The notes beneath the pieces were generated by a model, which was given only the letters and a program-made list of their open reading frames with translations, was not told the DNA's origin and did no database searches. A DNA stretch of 42,193 bases from Atopobium sp. oral taxon 810 str. F0209. GTDB taxonomy: Bacteria; Actinomycetota; Coriobacteriia; Coriobacteriales; Atopobiaceae. Below, piece after piece: positions 21,890 to 38,028 of this stretch. The stretch is taken from assembly GCF_000466405.1 (NCBI RefSeq), contig NZ_KE952967.1, positions 1 through 42,193 of the forward strand. The letters run 5' to 3'. Numbering within the stretch: the first letter of the stretch is position 1; each line of letters starts with the position of its first letter. Position numbers and translations under genes: made by a program.

Positions 21890-22378
21890 TTATATCGAAA
21901 TATATTCAGAGATAGGTACTGACTTGTCGGTTGTCATATAACGAACTTCAACTTTGACACCTGCCTCGACAATTTTTTTATAAATTGGGACTTCCTCCTC
22001 ACGGATAAATGCTCTTCTACCTGCCTTATAGCCAGGCGTCCCTTCGGGAGGAAGTTCAGTTAAACCAAGCGTGAGAACAGGAATCTTTTGACCTTGTTCA
22101 ACTAAATCCAGAAAGGTCTGAGGGTCACGCGCAATTACAAAAACCGTATGATCGTCATACTTTCCATTTTTGAAATTGTTGTACGCCACCTCGTGTGTAA
22201 TGATTGAGAGAGCCTGACCAGAAGGCTTGGACATCTTCATAGCGGTCTTACGCACCGGATCGTTTGCAGTTGCGTCATCGATAATCATGGTTCTCTGCGT
22301 GGCATAAGTGGGACACCAAAAACCTTGGACAATGCCATGCAAAAGGCGATAATCGATTCTTCCAGCCACAATGCTCAT
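21890..22378 (-). CDS. PTS mannose family EIIB component
   Basis: 162 residues. 'RIDYRLLHGIVQGFW' (7-21) is the EIIB-man signature with the phosphorylated H14. It takes phosphate from EIIA and phosphorylates the sugar as it emerges from the EIIC/EIID channel. The ORF is open to 22585, but AAAGGAG seven bases before 22378 and the start of homology fix the start. As first gene of the operon it lies about 50 bp behind the -24/-12 type promoter. Sequence is complete to 'ISEYISI'. Confidence 0.93.
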   Translation of the reverse strand: MSIVAGRIDYRLLHGIVQGFWCPTYATQRTMIIDDATANDPVRKTAMKMSKPSGQALSIITHEVAYNNFKNGKYDDHTVFVIARDPQTFLDLVEQGQKIPVLTLGLTELPPEGTPGYKAGRRAFIREEEVPIYKKIVEAGVKVEVRYMTTDKSVPISEYISI

Positions 22379-22440
22379 GTCTCGACTCCTTTCTGTCGAC
22401 CTATCTATACAGCTTGGACAGACCTCATTCGCTGGCGCCG

Positions 22441-22456
22441 TGCACGTAAGGTGCCG
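22441..22456 (-). promoter_or_regulatory. Sigma54-like -24/-12 promoter of the PTS operon
   Basis: On the minus strand 22456-22441 reads CGGCACCTTACGTGCA against the consensus TGGCACNNNNNTTGCW: both GG and GC are present at the exact spacing and only positions 1 and 12 differ. Transcription would start near 22429, about 50 bp before the EIIB start. Mannose-type PTS operons with a LevR-type activator normally use this promoter class. Confidence 0.65.
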
Positions 22457-22535
22457 TTCAAATTTAAGACCAGGGTACAGATCTGTTACCTGCGGAAGCT
22501 TCACAAAAAGTGATTGCGCCACAAGCAACGTTCTG

Positions 22536-22599
22536 TCGACACTTGGAAATGAACTTATGAAAGAATTACTTGCTAAAATCGACACAGGAGTTCGACACT
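22536..22599 (-). promoter_or_regulatory. Three TCGACAC boxes upstream of the PTS promoter
   Basis: TCGACAC occurs at 22536-22542, 22580-22586 and 22593-22599, the last two spaced 13 bp apart. They lie 80-158 bp upstream (minus strand) of the -24/-12 element, the usual place for an activator's enhancer sites, and between the promoter and the activator gene. Binding by the LevR-type protein is inference. Confidence 0.45.
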
Positions 22600-22644
22600 A
22601 TGAAAACGCTAACAGATTTGTCGCTTTTTCTATTTTATGTATAT

Positions 22645-25392
22645 CTACTCATCTTCGAGAGTAACTTCCAACTCACAAGTCACATCGCCATGCTCAAGAG
22701 TGTCTAGCGTAAGCATGTGGTGTACATAAGCAATCTCAGATACAGGGATCTCCACTTTATAGCGACGACACATATCGTGGAAAGCGGTATAGAACCAATC
22801 GATAAACTCGTGATTTTTTTGCTCAAAGCTTTTCTCGTCAGGATAGGTGTTCACAAAACTCTTAGTAACTAAACGTTCGATAAGGCCACACAGATGCACA
22901 TATACCGCAATTCTTCTGCGGTCATCAATCATGATACCTGACAATCTTGAGAGCTCTCTCATCGCATGGTCAGCTTCAAGGTAGAGCATCTCTGGATTAA
23001 GTATCGTAATTGATTCTGCAGCACTTCGTAATGTAAGATTTCGCAATAGACGAGAGTGAAAATCGTCCATTTCTTTAGAACTCAATACTTTAGATAAAAC
23101 ACGATCTAAATCTTCAGATGACCCAGAATACAGAATGTCTTCTAAGGGGATAAAGGGTACTTGTAAAATCCCTGGATTCATAGTGCCGACTAGCGCATGC
23201 ACACGATGAGCGTTAAATACTGCTGCTTGGTCTCCGCTACGTACAAGCTCATCATAGTCGCACGTAATCAAATTTACAGGTAGCTCTTCAGGGAGACTAT
23301 CTTGGACAAGTTTCCTAATATTATCGGCAGCACGGCTGCCAGCTTCAGAACAAAATGCAATCACATCATCCTTTTCGGATGAGCAGATTACATGATATGT
23401 TGGCCAACAAAGCTCAAGACTTTGATCTAAGAACTCTTGAAAGTCCCTATCTGATGACAACGCATTACCAACTCCAAGTGCCAAGCTAGTCGAGACGTTG
23501 TTAAATACGTACATGCTGCCCCTAAAGTCACGCGTTATAGCAGCACTTACCTGCTCGAGAGACCCCATATCCACCAAAATCACCACGCGGTCGCAAAAAG
23601 AAAAGCGTTCTAAAAGACGTGAAAGAGGTGTAATAATGTCTTTGATTTCTTGGTCATACGTCATATCAATAGCTTCAAAGACCCGTTTATGCAGAATCCT
23701 GTTTGCTGCATCGGCAATACTTGTCGCCGTAGCATACCCATGACAAATAACTACACCTAAAGAATCCCTCTTTGTTGGATTGGTGCCAATTGCTTCGATG
23801 ACCTCAATTTCAAGCATTACTTTGGTAAGTTCGTCAAGTTCAGTCCCCAAAATAGTTCGTACCCGGGCTGAAATTTGAGCTATGACAACAGTCGCAATCT
23901 GAGAGTCACGTGTAAATATGGATGCTAAATCACACAACTCATCATGATATTTTCGGCGCCACAGCGTCAACAGGTCCCCACCCCACAACTGCATTACCAG
24001 AGCCTGCGAAAGCAATCGTGTAACCTTGCGACTCAATTCAATTCCATACTCCTCATTGACCTGCTCGATAACTGGGGTAAGAATACGTTCGTAAGAGGCT
24101 ATTCGAGGGTTCACGATTACGTCATCAAAGTTACGAAGATCTTGGCTAGCATGAAGCTCCTCAATACAAGCAATCGTCAATTCATCAAACGTAATGGTGC
24201 CCGCTTTAAAATCGTCATAGGAATCAACCATTTGTTGAAAGAACTGCATCGATTGTTCGGCAGGATCAAGTGATGCAAGGTTGTTGTCAGAAACCAACTG
24301 GTCATCATCTGGAAGAGACGTATTGGCGGTCAAGATATTGGTTGGCAAATTATATACGTGTATCACCAGATTGTCTGCATCACGGTTGAGATATGCCTCT
24401 GCACAACAACTGGTTACAGTTGTTCTCAAGCCATTAATATTCTCGTCAAAGTTTGCAGCCGTGAGCGCACGAAGAGCACCCCTACTAATAGCAATATCCG
24501 CCGCAATTCGTTGGCCTTCGATACGCAAATAATGCATAACAAGAGCCATACGTTCGCATTCTCCTCGCTCTGCATAAGAAGGAAGCGACACGATGACAGG
24601 TACGAGATGTGAAATTGCTGAAAGAATTTTATTGCTTAGCGAACGCGAGCTTCCCAAAATGAAACGTGTGGGAGGCACACTGCCAACCTTAGACTGAACA
24701 ACTATACGATCCTCTGTCATATAACCAAGTAGTTGCTCGTTTACCGCTTGCGAAAGGTGGTCTACGCGCTCAATGTACACCACGCCACCCGCGGCTTGTT
24801 GTACGGCTCCCATTCGTTCCGACGTACCAAAAATATCAGCCATTATTGTGGAGTCATTATCGTCATACCGTGAACAATCCACTACCACAAAACGCGCACT
24901 ACGCGGAAGAATTCCACTATTAATTCCATACTCATAGGTAAGACGTGCTAAAAACGCCTTGCCAGTGCCATGAGCTCCCACAAGCAAAGCAGGAAGACCA
25001 CTAGGAGGATAGCTGATGGCACTTCGAAGCTGTTCAATGCATACGCTAAGTGAAAGATCTCGACCAATCGCCTTCTCAAAGTCATGACGCTCAGGAACAC
25101 CAGACTCTTCTAGCAACTCTTGCATTGAACTATATTCCATATATTTGATAGATGCCTGAAGATAACGTTCAAGACCACGTCGATGTAAATATAAAACGGG
25201 ACGAGAGTTAATTTTAACTACCAGTCGATCACGTACAAGCTCGTTGAGATACTGACTCGCAAGATTGCGACTAATGTGGCATTGTCCGGCAATCCTATTT
25301 GTCGTAAAGACATCGGTACTTTCAGGATTTAGATTACGTGTGGCCTTTTCAATGTACCAAAGGACCTCACTTTTTGTTTCCGGCATGCCCAT
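22645..25392 (-). CDS. LevR-type PTS-regulated transcriptional activator with degenerate AAA+ domain
   Basis: 915 residues. N-terminal winged HTH (about 25-75), AAA+ domain (about 100-345), PRD (about 430-535), an EIIA-like domain with 'VVICHGYATATSIADAANRI' whose H551 is the likely phosphorylation site, and a C-terminal PRD (about 800-905). Such proteins open sigma54 polymerase complexes at PTS promoters and are tuned by HPr/EII phosphorylation. Walker A is present (GAHGTGKA, 139-146), but the region that should hold the GAFTGA sigma54-contact loop is shortened by about ten residues ('DIFGTSERMGAVQQAAGG'), and Walker B reads 'VVYIER' instead of hydrophobics followed by D-E. Its ATPase and sigma54 contact may therefore be altered or lost. 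It is transcribed in the same direction as, and just ahead of, the operon it should control. Confidence 0.9.
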   Translation of the reverse strand: MGMPETKSEVLWYIEKATRNLNPESTDVFTTNRIAGQCHISRNLASQYLNELVRDRLVVKINSRPVLYLHRRGLERYLQASIKYMEYSSMQELLEESGVPERHDFEKAIGRDLSLSVCIEQLRSAISYPPSGLPALLVGAHGTGKAFLARLTYEYGINSGILPRSARFVVVDCSRYDDNDSTIMADIFGTSERMGAVQQAAGGVVYIERVDHLSQAVNEQLLGYMTEDRIVVQSKVGSVPPTRFILGSSRSLSNKILSAISHLVPVIVSLPSYAERGECERMALVMHYLRIEGQRIAADIAISRGALRALTAANFDENINGLRTTVTSCCAEAYLNRDADNLVIHVYNLPTNILTANTSLPDDDQLVSDNNLASLDPAEQSMQFFQQMVDSYDDFKAGTITFDELTIACIEELHASQDLRNFDDVIVNPRIASYERILTPVIEQVNEEYGIELSRKVTRLLSQALVMQLWGGDLLTLWRRKYHDELCDLASIFTRDSQIATVVIAQISARVRTILGTELDELTKVMLEIEVIEAIGTNPTKRDSLGVVICHGYATATSIADAANRILHKRVFEAIDMTYDQEIKDIITPLSRLLERFSFCDRVVILVDMGSLEQVSAAITRDFRGSMYVFNNVSTSLALGVGNALSSDRDFQEFLDQSLELCWPTYHVICSSEKDDVIAFCSEAGSRAADNIRKLVQDSLPEELPVNLITCDYDELVRSGDQAAVFNAHRVHALVGTMNPGILQVPFIPLEDILYSGSSEDLDRVLSKVLSSKEMDDFHSRLLRNLTLRSAAESITILNPEMLYLEADHAMRELSRLSGIMIDDRRRIAVYVHLCGLIERLVTKSFVNTYPDEKSFEQKNHEFIDWFYTAFHDMCRRYKVEIPVSEIAYVHHMLTLDTLEHGDVTCELEVTLEDE

Positions 25393-25768
25393 CGTTTGGT
25401 CGTTCCTTCCGTTCCTTCCTTATTAATAGGGAAAAGACGAATCCGATCTAGAATAGAATCGTGACTCCATTCAAAGGTGCATAACAAGGTTTATATAATA
25501 CGTAAAGCAAATCTATTCACATAACGCAACAGTATTACCACAGCACATGCAATTGACTCATATAGATTGCGGTAAAGTTTAAGACTCGCTGTTCTTGTCG
25601 GTGACAATGCCACTAGATGTGCAATCTCAAAGACGATGAGCAGTGACCGATGCGCGCTTTGTCCCCCGGCATCGCACGTCGGGTATCCCCGTTCCCAAGC
25701 CGACTTCGATGGCGAACCCTGCTCACCGAGCAAAAATGTCAAGGAGAGACGAAGATTCCGAAGCGATG
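25393..25768. other. Non-coding stretch at the border of a GC-rich insert
   Basis: 25393-25490 holds the upstream region of the LevR-type gene, including a repeated GGAA motif (AACGGAAGGAAC twice). Base composition changes from AT-rich to clearly GC-rich at about 25640, and I take this as the left edge of the acquired segment carrying the next two genes. The long antisense frames here show no protein-like features. Confidence 0.5.
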
Positions 25769-25777
25769 TGCTATAGT
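25769..25777 (+). promoter_or_regulatory. Extended -10 promoter for the cyclodeaminase leader
   Basis: TGC followed by TATAGT (25772-25777) is an extended -10 element. The -35 region is poor. Transcription would begin near 25784, giving a leader of about 140 nt that contains the structured element. Confidence 0.5.
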
Positions 25778-25800
25778 ACGGCCAACCGAATAGTTGTGTC

Positions 25801-25897
25801 CTCGGAGACCCCGGTACTCCGAGCAAGGGCACCGAAGCCAACGTCTTGTTAGGGCAGTCGCGCATGCGGCTGAGAGACGCGGCTTCGGTGCCCTTTT
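25801..25897 (+). ncRNA. Structured leader RNA with terminator (candidate riboswitch/attenuator)
   Basis: Three stacked elements are readable. A hairpin CTCGGAG (25801-25807)/CTCCGAG (25817-25823). A perfect 13-bp stem GGGCACCGAAGCC (25827-25839)/GGCTTCGGTGCCC (25881-25893) followed by TTTT and CGTTTT. Inside it, CGTCT/AGACG, an internal loop (TGTTAGGG against AG) and a 7-bp stem CAGTCGC/GCGGCTG with a GCAT loop. The 13-bp stem with T-tract is an intrinsic terminator lying before the ribosome site, so transcription would stop unless the fold is changed. This is how riboswitches and attenuators act. I could not match it to a known class, and no leader peptide is evident. Confidence 0.6.
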
Positions 25898-25925
25898 CGT
25901 TTTCCGGGAAGGATTGGAGAGTGCA

Positions 25926-26948
25926 ATGTTCGACTTCAGGATCTTGAGCAGAGATGACGTCGCCAGCCTGCTTGACATGGACAGCGTCATAGCCTCCAAC
26001 AAGGAGGTGTACCGTCAGCGCGCGCTCGCACAGACCGAAACCTGGCCAACCATCTTCAACGTGTTCGAAGAGGGAAAGGCAGACCTCGACATCAAGAGCG
26101 GCTGGCTCAAGGGCAGCCATGCCTTCGGCCACAAAACCGTTGGCTGGTACGGGGATAACCCCGCCAAGGGGCTGCCAGCGCTGGTGGGACTCATCTGCGT
26201 GTACGACGACGTGACGGGTGCCCCGCTGGGCGTCGTGGACGGCACCTACATCACGGGCATCCGGACAGGTGCTGCTGGCGCCATAGGAGCGCAGGCGCTC
26301 GCACGCCCTGACTCGCGCGCCCTCCTCATGGTCGGGACAGGCAATCAATGCGCGTACCAAATCGCCGCAACACTCACGCTGATGCCGCAGATAGAGCGCG
26401 TGTTCGTCGCCAACCCGCACAGACCAGCCACCACCCGCGCCAAGGTGGGGGCGCTGGGCGACGAGCTCGCTGCCCTCGGCGTGAACGCCTCGGGAGTGGG
26501 ACTTGTCGCCATCACCAGCGAAGGGGAACTTAAGGATGCCTGCGCCAAGGCAGACATCATCATCACGGCCACCATGTCCCGCAAGCCCATGATCAGGCGC
26601 GAGTGGGTTTGCCCTGGCACGCACCTCTCTTGCATCGGCGCGGACATGGAGGGCAAGGTGGAGGTCGACCCGCTCATTGTTGCCGACGCCCTGCTTTTTG
26701 TGGACGACACCGCGCACTGTATCGAGGCTGGGGAGATAGAAGTCGGCATCGAGCAGGGAGTCTTCACCGCCGACCACATCGCAGGCGAGATCGGCCAGCT
26801 TCTGTGTGGATCCAAGGAAGGTCGCACGAACGACGAGCAGATTACCGTGTTCGACGCGACAGGGATGGCTCTGCTCGACATCGCCTGTGCAAAGAAGGCG
26901 CTCGAGTTGGCTCACAGCTGCAATCTGGGCGTCACTGCCAGCATCTAG
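25926..26948 (+). CDS. Ornithine cyclodeaminase / mu-crystallin family protein
   Basis: 340 residues from MFDFRILSRDDV. The family pattern is clear: 'SLLDMDSVIASNKEVYRQRA', the substrate-side 'GWYGDNPAKGLPALVGLICV', 'TYITGIRTGAAGAIGAQ' and the Rossmann start 'ALLMVGTGNQCAYQIAATL' (about 120-138). These NAD-dependent cytoplasmic enzymes include ornithine cyclodeaminase, ketimine reductases and amino-acid dehydrogenases. The exact reaction is not predictable, and pairing with the next gene argues for amino-acid degradation or a diamino acid pathway. Start 25926 has GGAGAG six bases upstream; the frame upstream runs through the leader RNA and is rejected. High GC and codon choice set it apart from neighbours. 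Confidence 0.88.
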   Translation: MFDFRILSRDDVASLLDMDSVIASNKEVYRQRALAQTETWPTIFNVFEEGKADLDIKSGWLKGSHAFGHKTVGWYGDNPAKGLPALVGLICVYDDVTGAPLGVVDGTYITGIRTGAAGAIGAQALARPDSRALLMVGTGNQCAYQIAATLTLMPQIERVFVANPHRPATTRAKVGALGDELAALGVNASGVGLVAITSEGELKDACAKADIIITATMSRKPMIRREWVCPGTHLSCIGADMEGKVEVDPLIVADALLFVDDTAHCIEAGEIEVGIEQGVFTADHIAGEIGQLLCGSKEGRTNDEQITVFDATGMALLDIACAKKALELAHSCNLGVTASI

Positions 26949-26994
26949 TATCCAAGAGACAAAAAGAACAACCGCAGCAGAAAGGAACGAAGCC

Positions 26995-27996
26995 ATGACC
27001 AGAGAGACCGTAGAGGTGCCCGACTTTTCCGCCGCCGACGTGGACGCAGCCTACACACGCCTGAAAGATCATCTCGCGCCCACACCCGTGGTTCAGAGCT
27101 ATTACTTGGGAGGGCCGCTCTCGGGAATTGACGACGGCCGCGAGTACTTCTTCAAGCTGGAGAGCATGCAGCGCGCAAAGAGCTTCAAGATCCGCGGGGC
27201 GCTCAACAAGATGCTCACGCTGACGGACGAAGAGAGGGCTCGAGGCGTGGGCACTGTAAGCAGCGGCAACCACGGCAGCTCGGTCGCCTACGCAGGCTCG
27301 ATGCTGGGCATATCCGCCACCGTGATCGTGCCTGAGACATGTCCCCAATCCAAGCAGGACAAGATTCGTTACTTCGGCGGCACCTGTCTGCCGATGGGTA
27401 AGGATTACGATGAAGCCCACAAGCTGGGCATGCGCCACATTGAGGAGTATGGTCTCACCTACGTGGACGCCTACTACGACGACCCGCTCATCTACGCTGG
27501 CCAGGGTACAGTCGCCGTGGAACTCCTCGCCCAACTGCCGGCGGCAGACTGCATCGTAGTGCCCGTTGGCGGTGGCGGGCTCTCCACGGGAATCGCCGTG
27601 TGGGCCAAGACACAGCGCCCGAATATCTGCATCGTGGGCGTGCAGACCGAGGCCTGTCCGGCCATGTGGGCCAGCTGGCGCGATGGGAGGTTCTATGACG
27701 AGTACCCCATCGGTCCCACCCGCTGCGACGCGACCGTAGGCGGCGTGGGTGCTCTCGCCTACATGCGCTTGCGCGACGTGATGGACGAGCTGATCGTCGT
27801 GACAGAGGATGAGGCGGCGTCCGCGTGCGCGTTCATGGCGCGTGAGGAGAAGCTGGTGGCAGAGGTCGCATCCTGCATGACGGTGGCCGCCGTGCGCGAC
27901 CACCGCGAGCAGGTGGGAGGATCTCGCGTGGCACTCGTCATCTCCGGCGGCAACATCGACGGTGCCACTCTCGATGAGGTCCTGCGTCAGTACTGA
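26995..27996 (+). CDS. PLP-dependent threonine/serine dehydratase family protein
   Basis: 333 residues of fold-type II PLP enzymes: 'SFKIRGALNKML' holds the PLP-binding Lys near residue 63, 'SSGNHGSSVAYAG' the phosphate-side loop, and 'VPVGGGGLSTGIAVW' the Gly-rich PLP phosphate site. There is no C-terminal ACT domain, as in catabolic threonine dehydratases, serine racemase-like and diaminopropionate-type lyases. The ATG at 26995 has AAAGGAA nine bases upstream; the frame reaching back to 26806 overlaps the previous gene and is rejected. It follows the cyclodeaminase-like gene by 46 bp, so the two are one operon under the structured leader. Together they could convert a hydroxy- or diamino acid to a keto acid. 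Confidence 0.88.
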   Translation: MTRETVEVPDFSAADVDAAYTRLKDHLAPTPVVQSYYLGGPLSGIDDGREYFFKLESMQRAKSFKIRGALNKMLTLTDEERARGVGTVSSGNHGSSVAYAGSMLGISATVIVPETCPQSKQDKIRYFGGTCLPMGKDYDEAHKLGMRHIEEYGLTYVDAYYDDPLIYAGQGTVAVELLAQLPAADCIVVPVGGGGLSTGIAVWAKTQRPNICIVGVQTEACPAMWASWRDGRFYDEYPIGPTRCDATVGGVGALAYMRLRDVMDELIVVTEDEAASACAFMAREEKLVAEVASCMTVAAVRDHREQVGGSRVALVISGGNIDGATLDEVLRQY

Positions 27997-28534
27997 GCAC
28001 GCCGTCCTCCGACCGCCCATATGGTCGTATCCGACATGCTTAGGCTACCGTCGATGCCCATGGCGACGTACCGCAGGACTCCGGACACTCCGGCAGAGAG
28101 CGGACAGCGGGATTACGAGCCGAAGTGCGCTGCCCCCGTCACTTCGTCTCGTTCCCACCAGAGGGCATGCGTGAGAGGTTGAGGTTCTAGTACCCTCTTG
28201 TCCAATCTGCGTGGGCATCTGAGACCACATTTGGCCCAACTATTTGTGCCCACCGTTGCGCTATTCGCAAATTGCTCTACGCTATTTTATTTCGTTCCTT
28301 GAATAAGGAGTTCCTGACTCCCCCACCATAATCTTATGAAGGACTAAATGCGTACGGAAGCATCCTTTTTATGACCGTCTTTGTAACGACAATAGCAGTC
28401 ACACTTATATGGAATAGGAAAAGGTAAATGACGGTTTCAGAAGCTTGGAAGCCAACCGACGCTAGCAATTTACCTCTACTCTTATGTGCGCCTGCTGTGC
28501 TACAACGTAACATAGCAGATAAGGAGGTAATTTC
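27997..28534. other. Gap of 538 bp: right edge of GC-rich insert and a gene remnant
   Basis: GC-rich DNA runs to about 28200 and then turns AT-rich. GTGGGCA (28211-28217) and TGCCCAC (28247-28253) form an inverted repeat with a long loop and no T-tract. A stop-bounded frame at 28328-28427 reads 'GLNAYGSILFMTVFVTTIAV' with a basic end, like the last membrane helix of an ABC permease (PotC-like), with no start codon; it is probably a remnant. The antitoxin promoter must lie at the right end. Confidence 0.4.
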
Positions 28535-28759
28535 ATGGATGCTACAATGACAGTACGCTTGAACAGCGATGAAAAAGCTTTAATTAACTCATATACGCGT
28601 GTTTTTGGTACCACCGCCAGCCAACTTATGCGCAAGGCCACACTTGAGATGATTGAAGATCAAATAGACATAGATACATTTAAAGCAGCAAAACTAGAGT
28701 ATGAGGCTCATCCTGTGAGTTAGAGCATTGATGAGGCAAGGGATATGCTTGGCCTATGA
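28535..28759 (+). pseudogene. RelB/DUF6290-like antitoxin with premature amber stop
   Basis: The first 62 codons (28535-28723) read as a RelB-like ribbon-helix-helix antitoxin: 'MTVRLNSDEKALINSYTRVF' followed by 'GTTASQLMRKATLEMIEDQ' and 'EYEAHPVS'. A TAG at 28721-28723 stops it, but in the same frame 'SIDEARDMLGL' follows and ends in a TGA at 28757-28759. That overlaps the toxin ATG, as in intact relBE pairs. The lost tail is the toxin-contacting end in this family. AAGGAGG precedes the start at good spacing. The short form might still bind DNA. Confidence 0.8.
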
Positions 28760-29029
28760 ATAGCTATGAATTGAAAATCTCACGCAAAGCCCTAAAGCAG
28801 CTTTCAAAACTAGATAATAAACGTGATGTTCAGATTATTCTTGCATGGCTAGAAAAAAATTGAAGGTTGCGAAAACCTACGTTTACATGGCAAGGCATTA
28901 GTTGGGAACTACGCTGGAGCATGGCGTTATCATATTGGAACCTATAGAGCACTCTGCGAGATACACGACAATGAACTTATTGTTTATACGTTCGAGATAG
29001 CACACAGAAGAGAGGTCTACAAACGCTAG
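28756..29029 (+). pseudogene. RelE/ParE-like toxin with +1 frameshift in an A7 run
   Basis: From the ATG at 28756 the frame reads 'MNSYELKISRKALKQLSKLD' and on to 'AWLEKN' and a TGA. Reading one base later after the run of seven A (28853-28859), the protein continues as 'EGCENLRLHGKALVGNYAGA', 'WRYHIGTYRALCEIHDNELI' and 'VYTFEIAHRREVYKR', a full RelE-fold C-terminus with the usual basic residues. Six A instead of seven would restore an intact toxin of 90 residues. This may be a real inactivation, a slippage-controlled toxin, or a sequencing error. The toxin would be an mRNA-cleaving ribosome-dependent RNase in the RelE family. Confidence 0.85.
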
Positions 29030-29060
29030 GGCTCAATCAACTATATTGCGTCCCTTAACT

Positions 29061-30045: not shown

Positions 30046-30969
30046 TTATTGGACAAAAAGCCTCTTGAACGTGCCTTCCTCAAGTTCGTTGAGGTTGTAA
30101 ATTGTATCCATGATTTCGAATGTCTCGCGGAGGTTGTTACGTGCACTCTTCCAGCCACCGCCGTCCGTCACCCAGACAAACTGGAAGCCGGGAATACGCT
30201 CGGACTCCTGGGCCATCTCCTTGTAGGAGCGGGACGTCTCGTTGAGCTTAGAGCCGCCACCAGAGTAGAAGTTGGTCTCGATGCCAAACAATCCCTTGGC
30301 CGTGCGCACAACGAAGTCGAACCTCTTCTCTACGGTGCCACTGTTGGTGATTTCCGATAGGTCGATGCCCCAGAAGCTTTGCATGGTGCTGGTATATAGT
30401 TCCTTGTAGTAGACGCCGACCTCTTGCGGGTTACCGTCGATTATCTTTCTTCCCTCACTGTTGCGACAGGCCAGTCCTGCCGTGCGAAGGTAGCCCTCCA
30501 CCAAGTTCTCCATGAGGTGCCCACCACGGTTCTTGCGCCCGTTAGAGTCGAGACCGACCTCAACGCCCATCACATAGTCAAGAAGATTGGTAATGTAGTG
30601 GCTCTCCATCAGCTCGAATAGGCCAGTAGAGCGCATGAAGTCGGCATAATCCTGCGGCCTGTTGGATTTCTTCTTGCCTCCAAACTGGAACTTTGTGAGC
30701 ATGCCGACCTCGTAGATGGGGACCTCAGTCGCCCGCACCGCGATGAGCGTGGGCACCACGTTGAGCACATCCGGATACTTTTTCACAAGCGCAAGGAAGT
30801 CGGACTCGATGCTTTTGGAACCTAGAAGCGAGTTCATTAGGTGAAGCTCAGAGCGCCACTTCTCTGTGTTCGCGATGGCCTTGTCGAAGTCAACATAGTA
30901 GTCGTAGCTGGCAATGACGGGTTTGAACTGGCCTAGCCAAGTGTCGAAGTCTCTGGTGTTGCGAGTCAT
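30046..30969 (-). CDS. dpnB: DpnII-type restriction endonuclease (GATC)
   Basis: 307 residues of the R.DpnII family, which cut unmethylated GATC. The C-terminal catalytic part has 'VEKRFDFVVRTAKGLFGIET' continuing 'NFYSGGGSKLNETSRSYKEM', a PD-(D/E)xK variant with D...ExN that is typical of DpnII, preceded by 'GGHLMENLVEGYLRTAGL'. The start at 30969 overlaps the stop of the methylase gene (ATGA), so translation is coupled after both methylases, which protects the host on first entry. The frame upstream to 31185 is rejected because it lies in the methylase gene. Length is near that of the pneumococcal enzyme (288). Confidence 0.93.
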   Translation of the reverse strand: MTRNTRDFDTWLGQFKPVIASYDYYVDFDKAIANTEKWRSELHLMNSLLGSKSIESDFLALVKKYPDVLNVVPTLIAVRATEVPIYEVGMLTKFQFGGKKKSNRPQDYADFMRSTGLFELMESHYITNLLDYVMGVEVGLDSNGRKNRGGHLMENLVEGYLRTAGLACRNSEGRKIIDGNPQEVGVYYKELYTSTMQSFWGIDLSEITNSGTVEKRFDFVVRTAKGLFGIETNFYSGGGSKLNETSRSYKEMAQESERIPGFQFVWVTDGGGWKSARNNLRETFEIMDTIYNLNELEEGTFKRLFVQ

Positions 30970-31733
30970 AGTGGCACCTCTTCCCTTCTCAGCCGCTCTG
31001 CGGCAATTTGTAGATACTCTTCCAATGCATCTATACCTGTGGATTTGCGTGCGAGCCGTTTTGCGGCGACGCAGGTTGTGCCACTCCCCACGAAGGGATC
31101 GAGCACCGTCGCACCTTCCCGTGTCGAAGCCTGAATAATTCGTTCGAGCAGGTAGAGCGGCTTCTGAGTAGGGTGCTTGCCACACGCCTTCTCGGACCTA
31201 GGCGTGAGCGTTCCCTCCCAGACGTCCTTCATCTGCTTGCCACCGTTAATCTCCTTCATGAGCGTGTAATCGAAGTAGTGTTTGGCCCTCTTGTCGTCCT
31301 TCCTTGCCCAGAGCACGGTCTCTGTGGAGTGCGTGAAGCTGCGGCAGGCGAGGTTTGGAGGCGGGTTGAGCTTTCGCCAGGTGATGTTATTGAGAATGCG
31401 GAAGCCCTCCTGCTCCAATGCCATGCCACAGGAGTAGATGTTGTGGAAGTTCCCACTTATCCAGATGGTGCCGTCGAGTGTGAGGACGCGGTAGCACTCG
31501 CGTATCCAGCGTCGGTTAAACTCGTGCTTGCCATTGACGCCCATGCCGCGATCCCACTCACCTTTGTTCACGCTGACCTGCTTGCCACCCGAGCAGGAGA
31601 TGCCGTCGTTCGAAAGGAAGTAGGGTGGGTCGGCAAACACCATGTCAAACGAGCTGTCGGGAATTTCCGCCAGAACGTCAAACACGTCGCCCAGAACGAG
31701 CTTGGAGCTTTCGTCTTCGTAGTATGCCTGCAT
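30966..31733 (-). CDS. dpnA: DpnA-type adenine-specific DNA methyltransferase
   Basis: 255 residues of the N4/N6 (beta-class) methyltransferases. Catalytic 'MVFADPPYFLSNDG' (DPPY at 35-38) is N-terminal and the SAM motif 'LDPFVGSGTTCVAAKRL' is C-terminal, the order expected for DpnA. In DpnII systems this second enzyme methylates GATC and, unlike DpnM, can modify single-stranded incoming DNA during transformation. It starts two bases after the dpnM stop. The sequence looks intact. Confidence 0.93.
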   Translation of the reverse strand: MQAYYEDESSKLVLGDVFDVLAEIPDSSFDMVFADPPYFLSNDGISCSGGKQVSVNKGEWDRGMGVNGKHEFNRRWIRECYRVLTLDGTIWISGNFHNIYSCGMALEQEGFRILNNITWRKLNPPPNLACRSFTHSTETVLWARKDDKRAKHYFDYTLMKEINGGKQMKDVWEGTLTPRSEKACGKHPTQKPLYLLERIIQASTREGATVLDPFVGSGTTCVAAKRLARKSTGIDALEEYLQIAAERLRREEVPL

Positions 31734-37456: not shown

Positions 37457-38028
37457 TACGGTTCGGTCCTTCGCGTGCGCACGGGCGCCCACTACTATGG
37501 CTTCTGCTGACTCCTCATAGCAAGCTTTACGCCGTAAAGATAAAATTCATTACCTTCTACGTCTATGAGGCCTCCCGAGGTAAGACGTACTTCTTTCCCT
37601 TCATCTACCTGCCGCATCTACGCTGTGAGTTTCCGTGCAGCTTTTGGGCTTTGACTTGTGTAGCAGCCTCACCCACCCACATACGCCTCATGCGATTTCT
37701 GTTCGTCAGGCCAAAGGTTTGCCTCCTGCTTCCTTCAGATTCCACCTCACGGTGGACACCCTTGCTCTTGGCTATGCACTTCCCGCTGCCGGGTGTGCTA
37801 GGGACTTTCACCCATAAGAAGTACGCCATGCTCGGCACACTAAGACGCATTGAAGCGCTATGTGTTGCAGTGCATCTCAAGGTCTTATTCCCACTCAATA
37901 GCTGCACTTGCGCATTGCGTATCGTTGCATGCCATCTTGTATTACCTCGTGCCATCTTGTCCGAATTAATCGCGAATCAGGGGTTGATTCAATTCCCCGG
38001 AAATAGTTACTTCGCATTTCCCGCCAAT

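Follow-up and report, generated by a model that had tools for sequence, protein, structure and literature searches.

Operon and genomic setting

The window, a stretch of 42,193 nt from Atopobium sp. oral taxon 810 str. F0209 (contig NZ_KE952967.1, positions 1 to 42,193), carries a two-gene operon on its plus strand. The first gene (25926..26948) belongs to the ornithine cyclodeaminase/mu-crystallin family (COG2423 type; Pfam PF02423, E 1e-60). The second (26995..27996) is a PLP-dependent threonine-dehydratase-like gene (Pfam PF00291, E 3e-69). NCBIfam equivalog cut-offs were reached by neither operon protein. The gene pair lies in a stretch of ~60-67% GC with flanks of ~40-47% GC, and the GC content breaks near 25.6 kb. 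Operon and leader form a GC-rich island (25600-28250), the closest protein relatives of which are found in Firmicutes. Both look horizontally moved.

The nearest upstream gene is on the opposite strand (22645-25392, minus). The divergent region (21890-25392, minus) holds an activator of the sigma-54 type that carries EIIA-man and PRD domains and is distantly DagR-like, and then a mannose/sorbose-family PTS IIB gene. On the other side of the operon, positions 28536-29030 (plus) read as a small RelB/RelE-type toxin-antitoxin pair, with the second gene apparently broken in frame near 28860. Adjoining ORFs at 30046-31733 (minus) resemble, by their translations, a DNA adenine methyltransferase and a DpnII-like restriction endonuclease. 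Group II intron domains were detected by Rfam at 37466-37756 (minus; RF02001, 147.9 bits; RF01998, 39.6 bits).

Structure of the leader

A sequence-only reading of this DNA had placed a structured leader at 25784-25925, with a 7-bp hairpin, an enclosed arm of 5-bp and 7-bp helices, an 8/2 internal loop, a G-U pair, a GCAT loop and a T-tract. All of these elements were recovered at that place. The main stem was also perfect, as described, but it measured 15 bp, not 13.

Folding gave the following arrangement, all on the plus strand. Hairpin 1 (25801..25823) has a 7-bp stem, CTCGGAG/CTCCGAG, and a 9-nt loop, ACCCCGGTA (25808-25816). After a single nucleotide follows the terminator hairpin (25825..25895), with its outer stem (25825-25839/25881-25895; AAGGGCACCGAAGCC/GGCTTCGGTGCCCTT) and a 5-bp inner stem (25842-25846/25875-25879). 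Above the inner stem lies the internal loop (25847-25854/25873-25874). Its 5' side, the bulge TGTTAGGG (25847..25854), is the proposed ligand site, and the GGG of this bulge (25852-25854) the proposed pseudoknot partner. The top hairpin (25855..25872), CAGTCGC-GCAT-GCGGCTG, has a 7-bp helix with one G-U pair. The T-rich tail of the terminator, TTTTCGTTTT, was read from the sequence at 25894..25903.

The leader fold was exceptionally stable (z = -4.1), with none of 200 shuffles equally stable. Perfect 13-bp inverted repeats (gap ≤60) were found at three sites in the window, versus none in five dinucleotide shuffles of it. CCCCGG followed by TTAGGGC, wherever placed relative to the loops, arose in 38 of 200,000 dinucleotide shuffles of the leader. 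A possible extended -10 promoter element, TGcTATAGT (25769..25777, plus), would put the transcription start near 25784; this candidate has no -35 match and was unlisted by the consensus scan.

The same leader in Bacillaceae

Cyclodeaminase homologues were gathered from the window's family, from named genomes, and from the family and order of Psychrobacillus. An intact cyclodeaminase-dehydratase pair was found in six Bacillaceae genomes, and each of them has the leader (L036/L137 of Psychrobacillus, L138, L139, L140, L141 and L148). These leaders have a common layout: a hairpin whose loop contains CCCCGGG, then a long terminator stem that has the asymmetric bulge (A/G)UUAGGG, is crowned by a top hairpin and is followed by a T-rich tail. 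The CCCCGG loop and the TTAGGGC bulge sit in the same structural places in the window and in the six Bacillaceae leaders, and in each of them the CCC of loop 1 is complementary to the GGG of the bulge. The gene order is also identical in all six, with 49-51% (cyclodeaminase) and 56-60% (dehydratase) identity to the proteins of the window. Terminator stems and top hairpin are paired in every homologue. An unpaired inner arm in homologues had been named beforehand as the outcome that would speak against a selected structure; the inner arm is paired in all six.

The marks of the leader were found in 0 of 42 cyclodeaminase loci that lack the dehydratase partner, among them the Emergencia and Clostridium aminobutyricum cyclodeaminases, which are equally similar to that of the window (50-51%). 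A scan of 148 partly overlapping records on both strands, 1.1 Mb in all, met the combination CCCCGG..TTAGGGC in these leaders alone. Two more distant cyclodeaminase-dehydratase neighbours (L035 and L038, ~30-36% identity) were without the loop marks, and a comparison of the leader DNA with 100 relatives returned short chance matches only. In the window's family, one dehydratase homologue standing by itself (L156) adjoined neither a cyclodeaminase nor the RNA. One Bacillaceae copy of the operon (L142/L153) has no leader RNA, and the first 104 codons of its cyclodeaminase are replaced by transporter-like sequence.

With its strong 15-bp stem and T tail, the element could be an ordinary intrinsic terminator, a remnant of a lost upstream gene or a stop for stray transcription, with an incidental inner structure. 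Terminators of upstream genes do precede other cyclodeaminases, and the GC content does break near 25.6 kb. However, the nearest upstream gene points the opposite way, which places the terminator, if it is no remnant, in the plus-strand operon's leader, and a second phylum has the same loops and extra hairpins ahead of this gene pair. We consider an ordinary terminator improbable. The candidate riboswitch that had been suggested in front of the operon is instead strengthened: six Bacillaceae genomes have the RNA ahead of this gene pair, its loops conserved and its stems altered yet paired.

Covariation

Base pairs were counted in a hand alignment of five distinct leaders (34 pairs), which was used because automatic alignments misplaced the loops; such an alignment leans to structure. 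Standard pairs occupied 151 of 154 cells, while controls with the 3' partners slid by 1-3 columns reached 36-52%. In this alignment, 22 of the 34 pairs changed on both sides: 6/7 in hairpin 1, 10/15 in the outer stem, 3/5 in the inner stem and 3/7 in the top hairpin, where most of the remaining pairs are absent from the shorter Bacillaceae hairpins. Within Bacillaceae alone, three pairs changed on both sides, so the signal is mostly a contrast between two lineages, the window and Bacillaceae. Independent of this is the contrast between loops of unchanged sequence and stems whose sequence has diverged without loss of pairing.

Searches with RNA family models

The window and the leader were searched with the Rfam 15 covariance models, including T-box, lysine and other riboswitches. 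The leader had no match at the gathering score or up to E 10. This bears on the idea of an attenuator driven by a leader peptide, a tRNA or an RNA-binding protein. A short open frame does run across part of the leader, with its end in the bulge region, but it has neither a ribosome site nor a run of a single amino acid, a T-box or other Rfam match was lacking even at E 10, and what is conserved in Bacillaceae are RNA loops. The probability left to such an attenuator is negligible.

For guanidine-IV RNAs, the Rfam result carries little information, because the clear guanidine-IV leader of locus L080 was likewise unmatched at the gathering score. For Gd4v, a variant of guanidine-IV, neither a match nor a model was seen in Rfam 15. 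In locus L080 (positions 496-1824), the leader is followed by an ORF resembling a B3/B4-domain (tRNA-editing-like) protein and then by an SMR exporter gene.

As a guanidine-IV reference set for the window's bacterial class, L057 and L080, both near SMR exporter genes, were combined in one model (R2). It returned 36 matches at E < 1e-6 in genomes of the class, and 30 of these loci were read (L090-L119; six further places make up the 36). The genomes of the class thus hold at least 36 leaders of guanidine-IV type. Weak R2 matches (L120-L135) were folded and rejected as chance, being mostly coding-like sequence. Against the window, R2 gave no match up to E 10, and none in G000. Two further models were built from the window. 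In a model of the window alone (R1), the long terminator stem dominates, and its best foreign match (L087) was a plain terminator. A model of the window and Psychrobacillus (R3) yielded no further member in 398 genomes of the class; since R3 also failed to recover the Psychrobacillus copy, and its match to the window is circular, it is not counted as evidence.

Relation to guanidine-IV riboswitches

Guanidine-IV leaders of the window's class have related loops, CCGCCGGG and GUUAGGCC, the latter at the place of the bulge. Across the 30 loci, the loops read CCGCCGGGU and GUUAGGCCUnnGAA, compared with ACCCCGGUA and GUUAGGGC in the window; this consensus was partly imposed by the search expression, with C13, C14, G18 and A20 not imposed. 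The candidate kissing bases are GCC/GGC in the guanidine-IV leaders of the class and CCC/GGG in the window and in Bacillaceae. The kissing pairs of the Clostridium botulinum guanidine-IV riboswitch include A29-U72 and C30-G71 (PMC7736828, PMC11611296). By this comparison, the end pair of the pseudoknot appears as G-C, A-U and C-G, and one pseudoknot pair would have changed from G-C in the guanidine-IV leaders to C-G in the window.

The leader shares with guanidine-IV (mepA/GGAM-1) RNAs the overall layout, the loop-2 core GUUAGG.C, a CCGG in loop 1, the loop-loop complementarity and the use of a terminator as platform. The ON mechanism is presumably also the same. It differs in its shorter loop 1 and in a gene context without exporters. 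Many guanidine-IV leaders of the class (L090, L105, L112, L116) carry an (A/C)ATAG element up to ~10 bases before hairpin 1, and GAATAG stands ahead of hairpin 1 in the window (25788-25793).

A true guanidine-IV riboswitch sensing guanidine would account for the loop GUUAGG.C and the two-hairpin terminator layout, both common to the guanidine-IV leaders of the class. The leader nevertheless has a top hairpin, which guanidine-IV RNAs lack, and it was undetected by R2; on these grounds it is not guanidine-IV proper. The operon is also without an exporter gene, and guanidine sensing by this leader seems very improbable. The guanidine-III riboswitch (RF01763) is likewise pseudoknotted and precedes SMR exporters in the same bacterial class, but its fold and sequence are different and the window has no match to it.

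Assignment to Gd4v

Lenkeit et al. 2022 (PMC9788692) present Gd4v as an orphan riboswitch very similar to guanidine-IV, with an unknown ligand. It has two hairpins joined by a loop-loop pseudoknot. The second hairpin is a terminator that carries a further hairpin at its top (D2), and Gd4v is proposed to be an ON switch. The hosts named there are Actinobacteria and Firmicutes. Among its gene associations, the transaminase PRK07324 stands at over 50%, with GNAT and MATE genes also present and COG2423 in some operons. According to the same paper, the compounds tried gave negatives or weak guanidine binding only and none switched the RNA, and the D1 nucleotide separates the two motifs, being G throughout guanidine-IV but never in Gd4v (PMC9788692).

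The leader of the window resembles this description in its architecture: two hairpins, of which the 3' one is a Rho-independent terminator; a possible pseudoknot between loop 1 and the bulge, judged by complementarity; and a hairpin on top of the terminator at the place of D2. The operon also holds a COG2423-type gene, as some Gd4v operons do. At the presumed D1 position (probably the G of GAA in loop 2), the window has U or G, depending on whether U25847-G25874 is counted as a pair. Two differences stand beside these. The operon is without the PRK07324 transaminase, the commonest Gd4v gene, and has the cyclodeaminase first and the threonine-dehydratase-like enzyme second. The Bacillaceae hosts of the leader also seem less gut-bound than most Gd4v hosts.

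In our view the leader is likely to act through transcription termination as an ON riboswitch of the guanidine-IV superfamily, with Gd4v as the most likely subclass, a likeness drawn from the described architecture rather than from the published alignment. Membership in Gd4v is probable, not proven. The earlier reading had found the RNA impossible to assign to a known class; that view is superseded, given that architecture and loop sequences match the published guanidine-IV/Gd4v group. The leader is best read not as a new kind of RNA, but as a member of a described orphan group, and one whose gene context is informative.

Alternatively, the leader might belong to a separate subclass of the guanidine-IV superfamily, outside both guanidine-IV and Gd4v proper, and sense a metabolite of the cyclodeaminase-dehydratase pathway. 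The uniformity of CCCCGG(G) and (A/G)UUAGGGC over two phyla, tied to one gene pair, favours this, as does an operon without transaminase, acetyltransferase or MATE gene. Both the D2 hairpin and the COG2423 association have, however, already been described for Gd4v, so a separate class is not needed and we regard one as unlikely. Somewhat less doubtful, though still a minor possibility, is that the leaders of cyclodeaminase-dehydratase operons have a ligand class to themselves within the guanidine-IV/Gd4v superfamily and respond to an amino acid or imine of the enzyme pair. If true, this would add to the cases in which a single RNA scaffold has been re-tuned to another ligand.

Proposed mechanism

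For guanidine-IV, a kissing loop is reported to prevent full closure of the terminator, within a narrow sensitive period before the terminator is transcribed (PMC7736828, PMC11611296). This logic fits the Gd4v-like leader, because a single nucleotide lies between hairpin 1 and the outer stem; for the same reason, a kissing complex should not coexist with a closed outer stem. In folds of growing transcripts, hairpin 1 and the inner arm with the bulge were complete at ~25879, and the 3' arm of the outer stem begins at 25881. The terminator dominated once this arm was made, with -32 kcal/mol before and -59 kcal/mol after.

By analogy with guanidine-IV, from which ligand binding, kissing and the ON direction are all inferred, the switch may work as follows. 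Without ligand, hairpin 1 would form first; the arm bearing the bulge TGTTAGGG and its top hairpin would follow, and the 15-bp outer stem would close into a terminator, leaving the operon off. The ligand would bind at the proposed kissing contact between CCC in loop 1 and GGG in the bulge, briefly after ~25879 and before the outer 3' arm exists. The kissing complex would exclude the closed outer stem, and the polymerase would read into the cyclodeaminase and dehydratase genes. In the MFE folds of growing transcripts, GTGTCC (25796..25801, plus) was pairable with GGGCAC (25827-25832). This pairing might hold hairpin 1 and block the 5' arm of the terminator. Equivalents exist in Bacillaceae and shuffles matched in 7-20% of trials, making it a weak candidate for an antiterminator.

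Implications for the ligand

A natural guess for the ligand is a nitrogen-rich amine or amino acid handled by the two enzymes; the earlier reading had put forward ornithine, threonine, serine, diaminopropionate and lysine as candidates. That distant relatives in Bacillus have this RNA ahead of the same two genes is a new clue to what Gd4v senses. An operon of two enzymes that accompanies the RNA in two distant lineages narrows the chemistry to a step of the PLP-dependent dehydratase/ammonia-lyase type and one of the cyclodeaminase/imine-reductase type. The substrates and products of the enzyme pair would be a direct route to the ligand.
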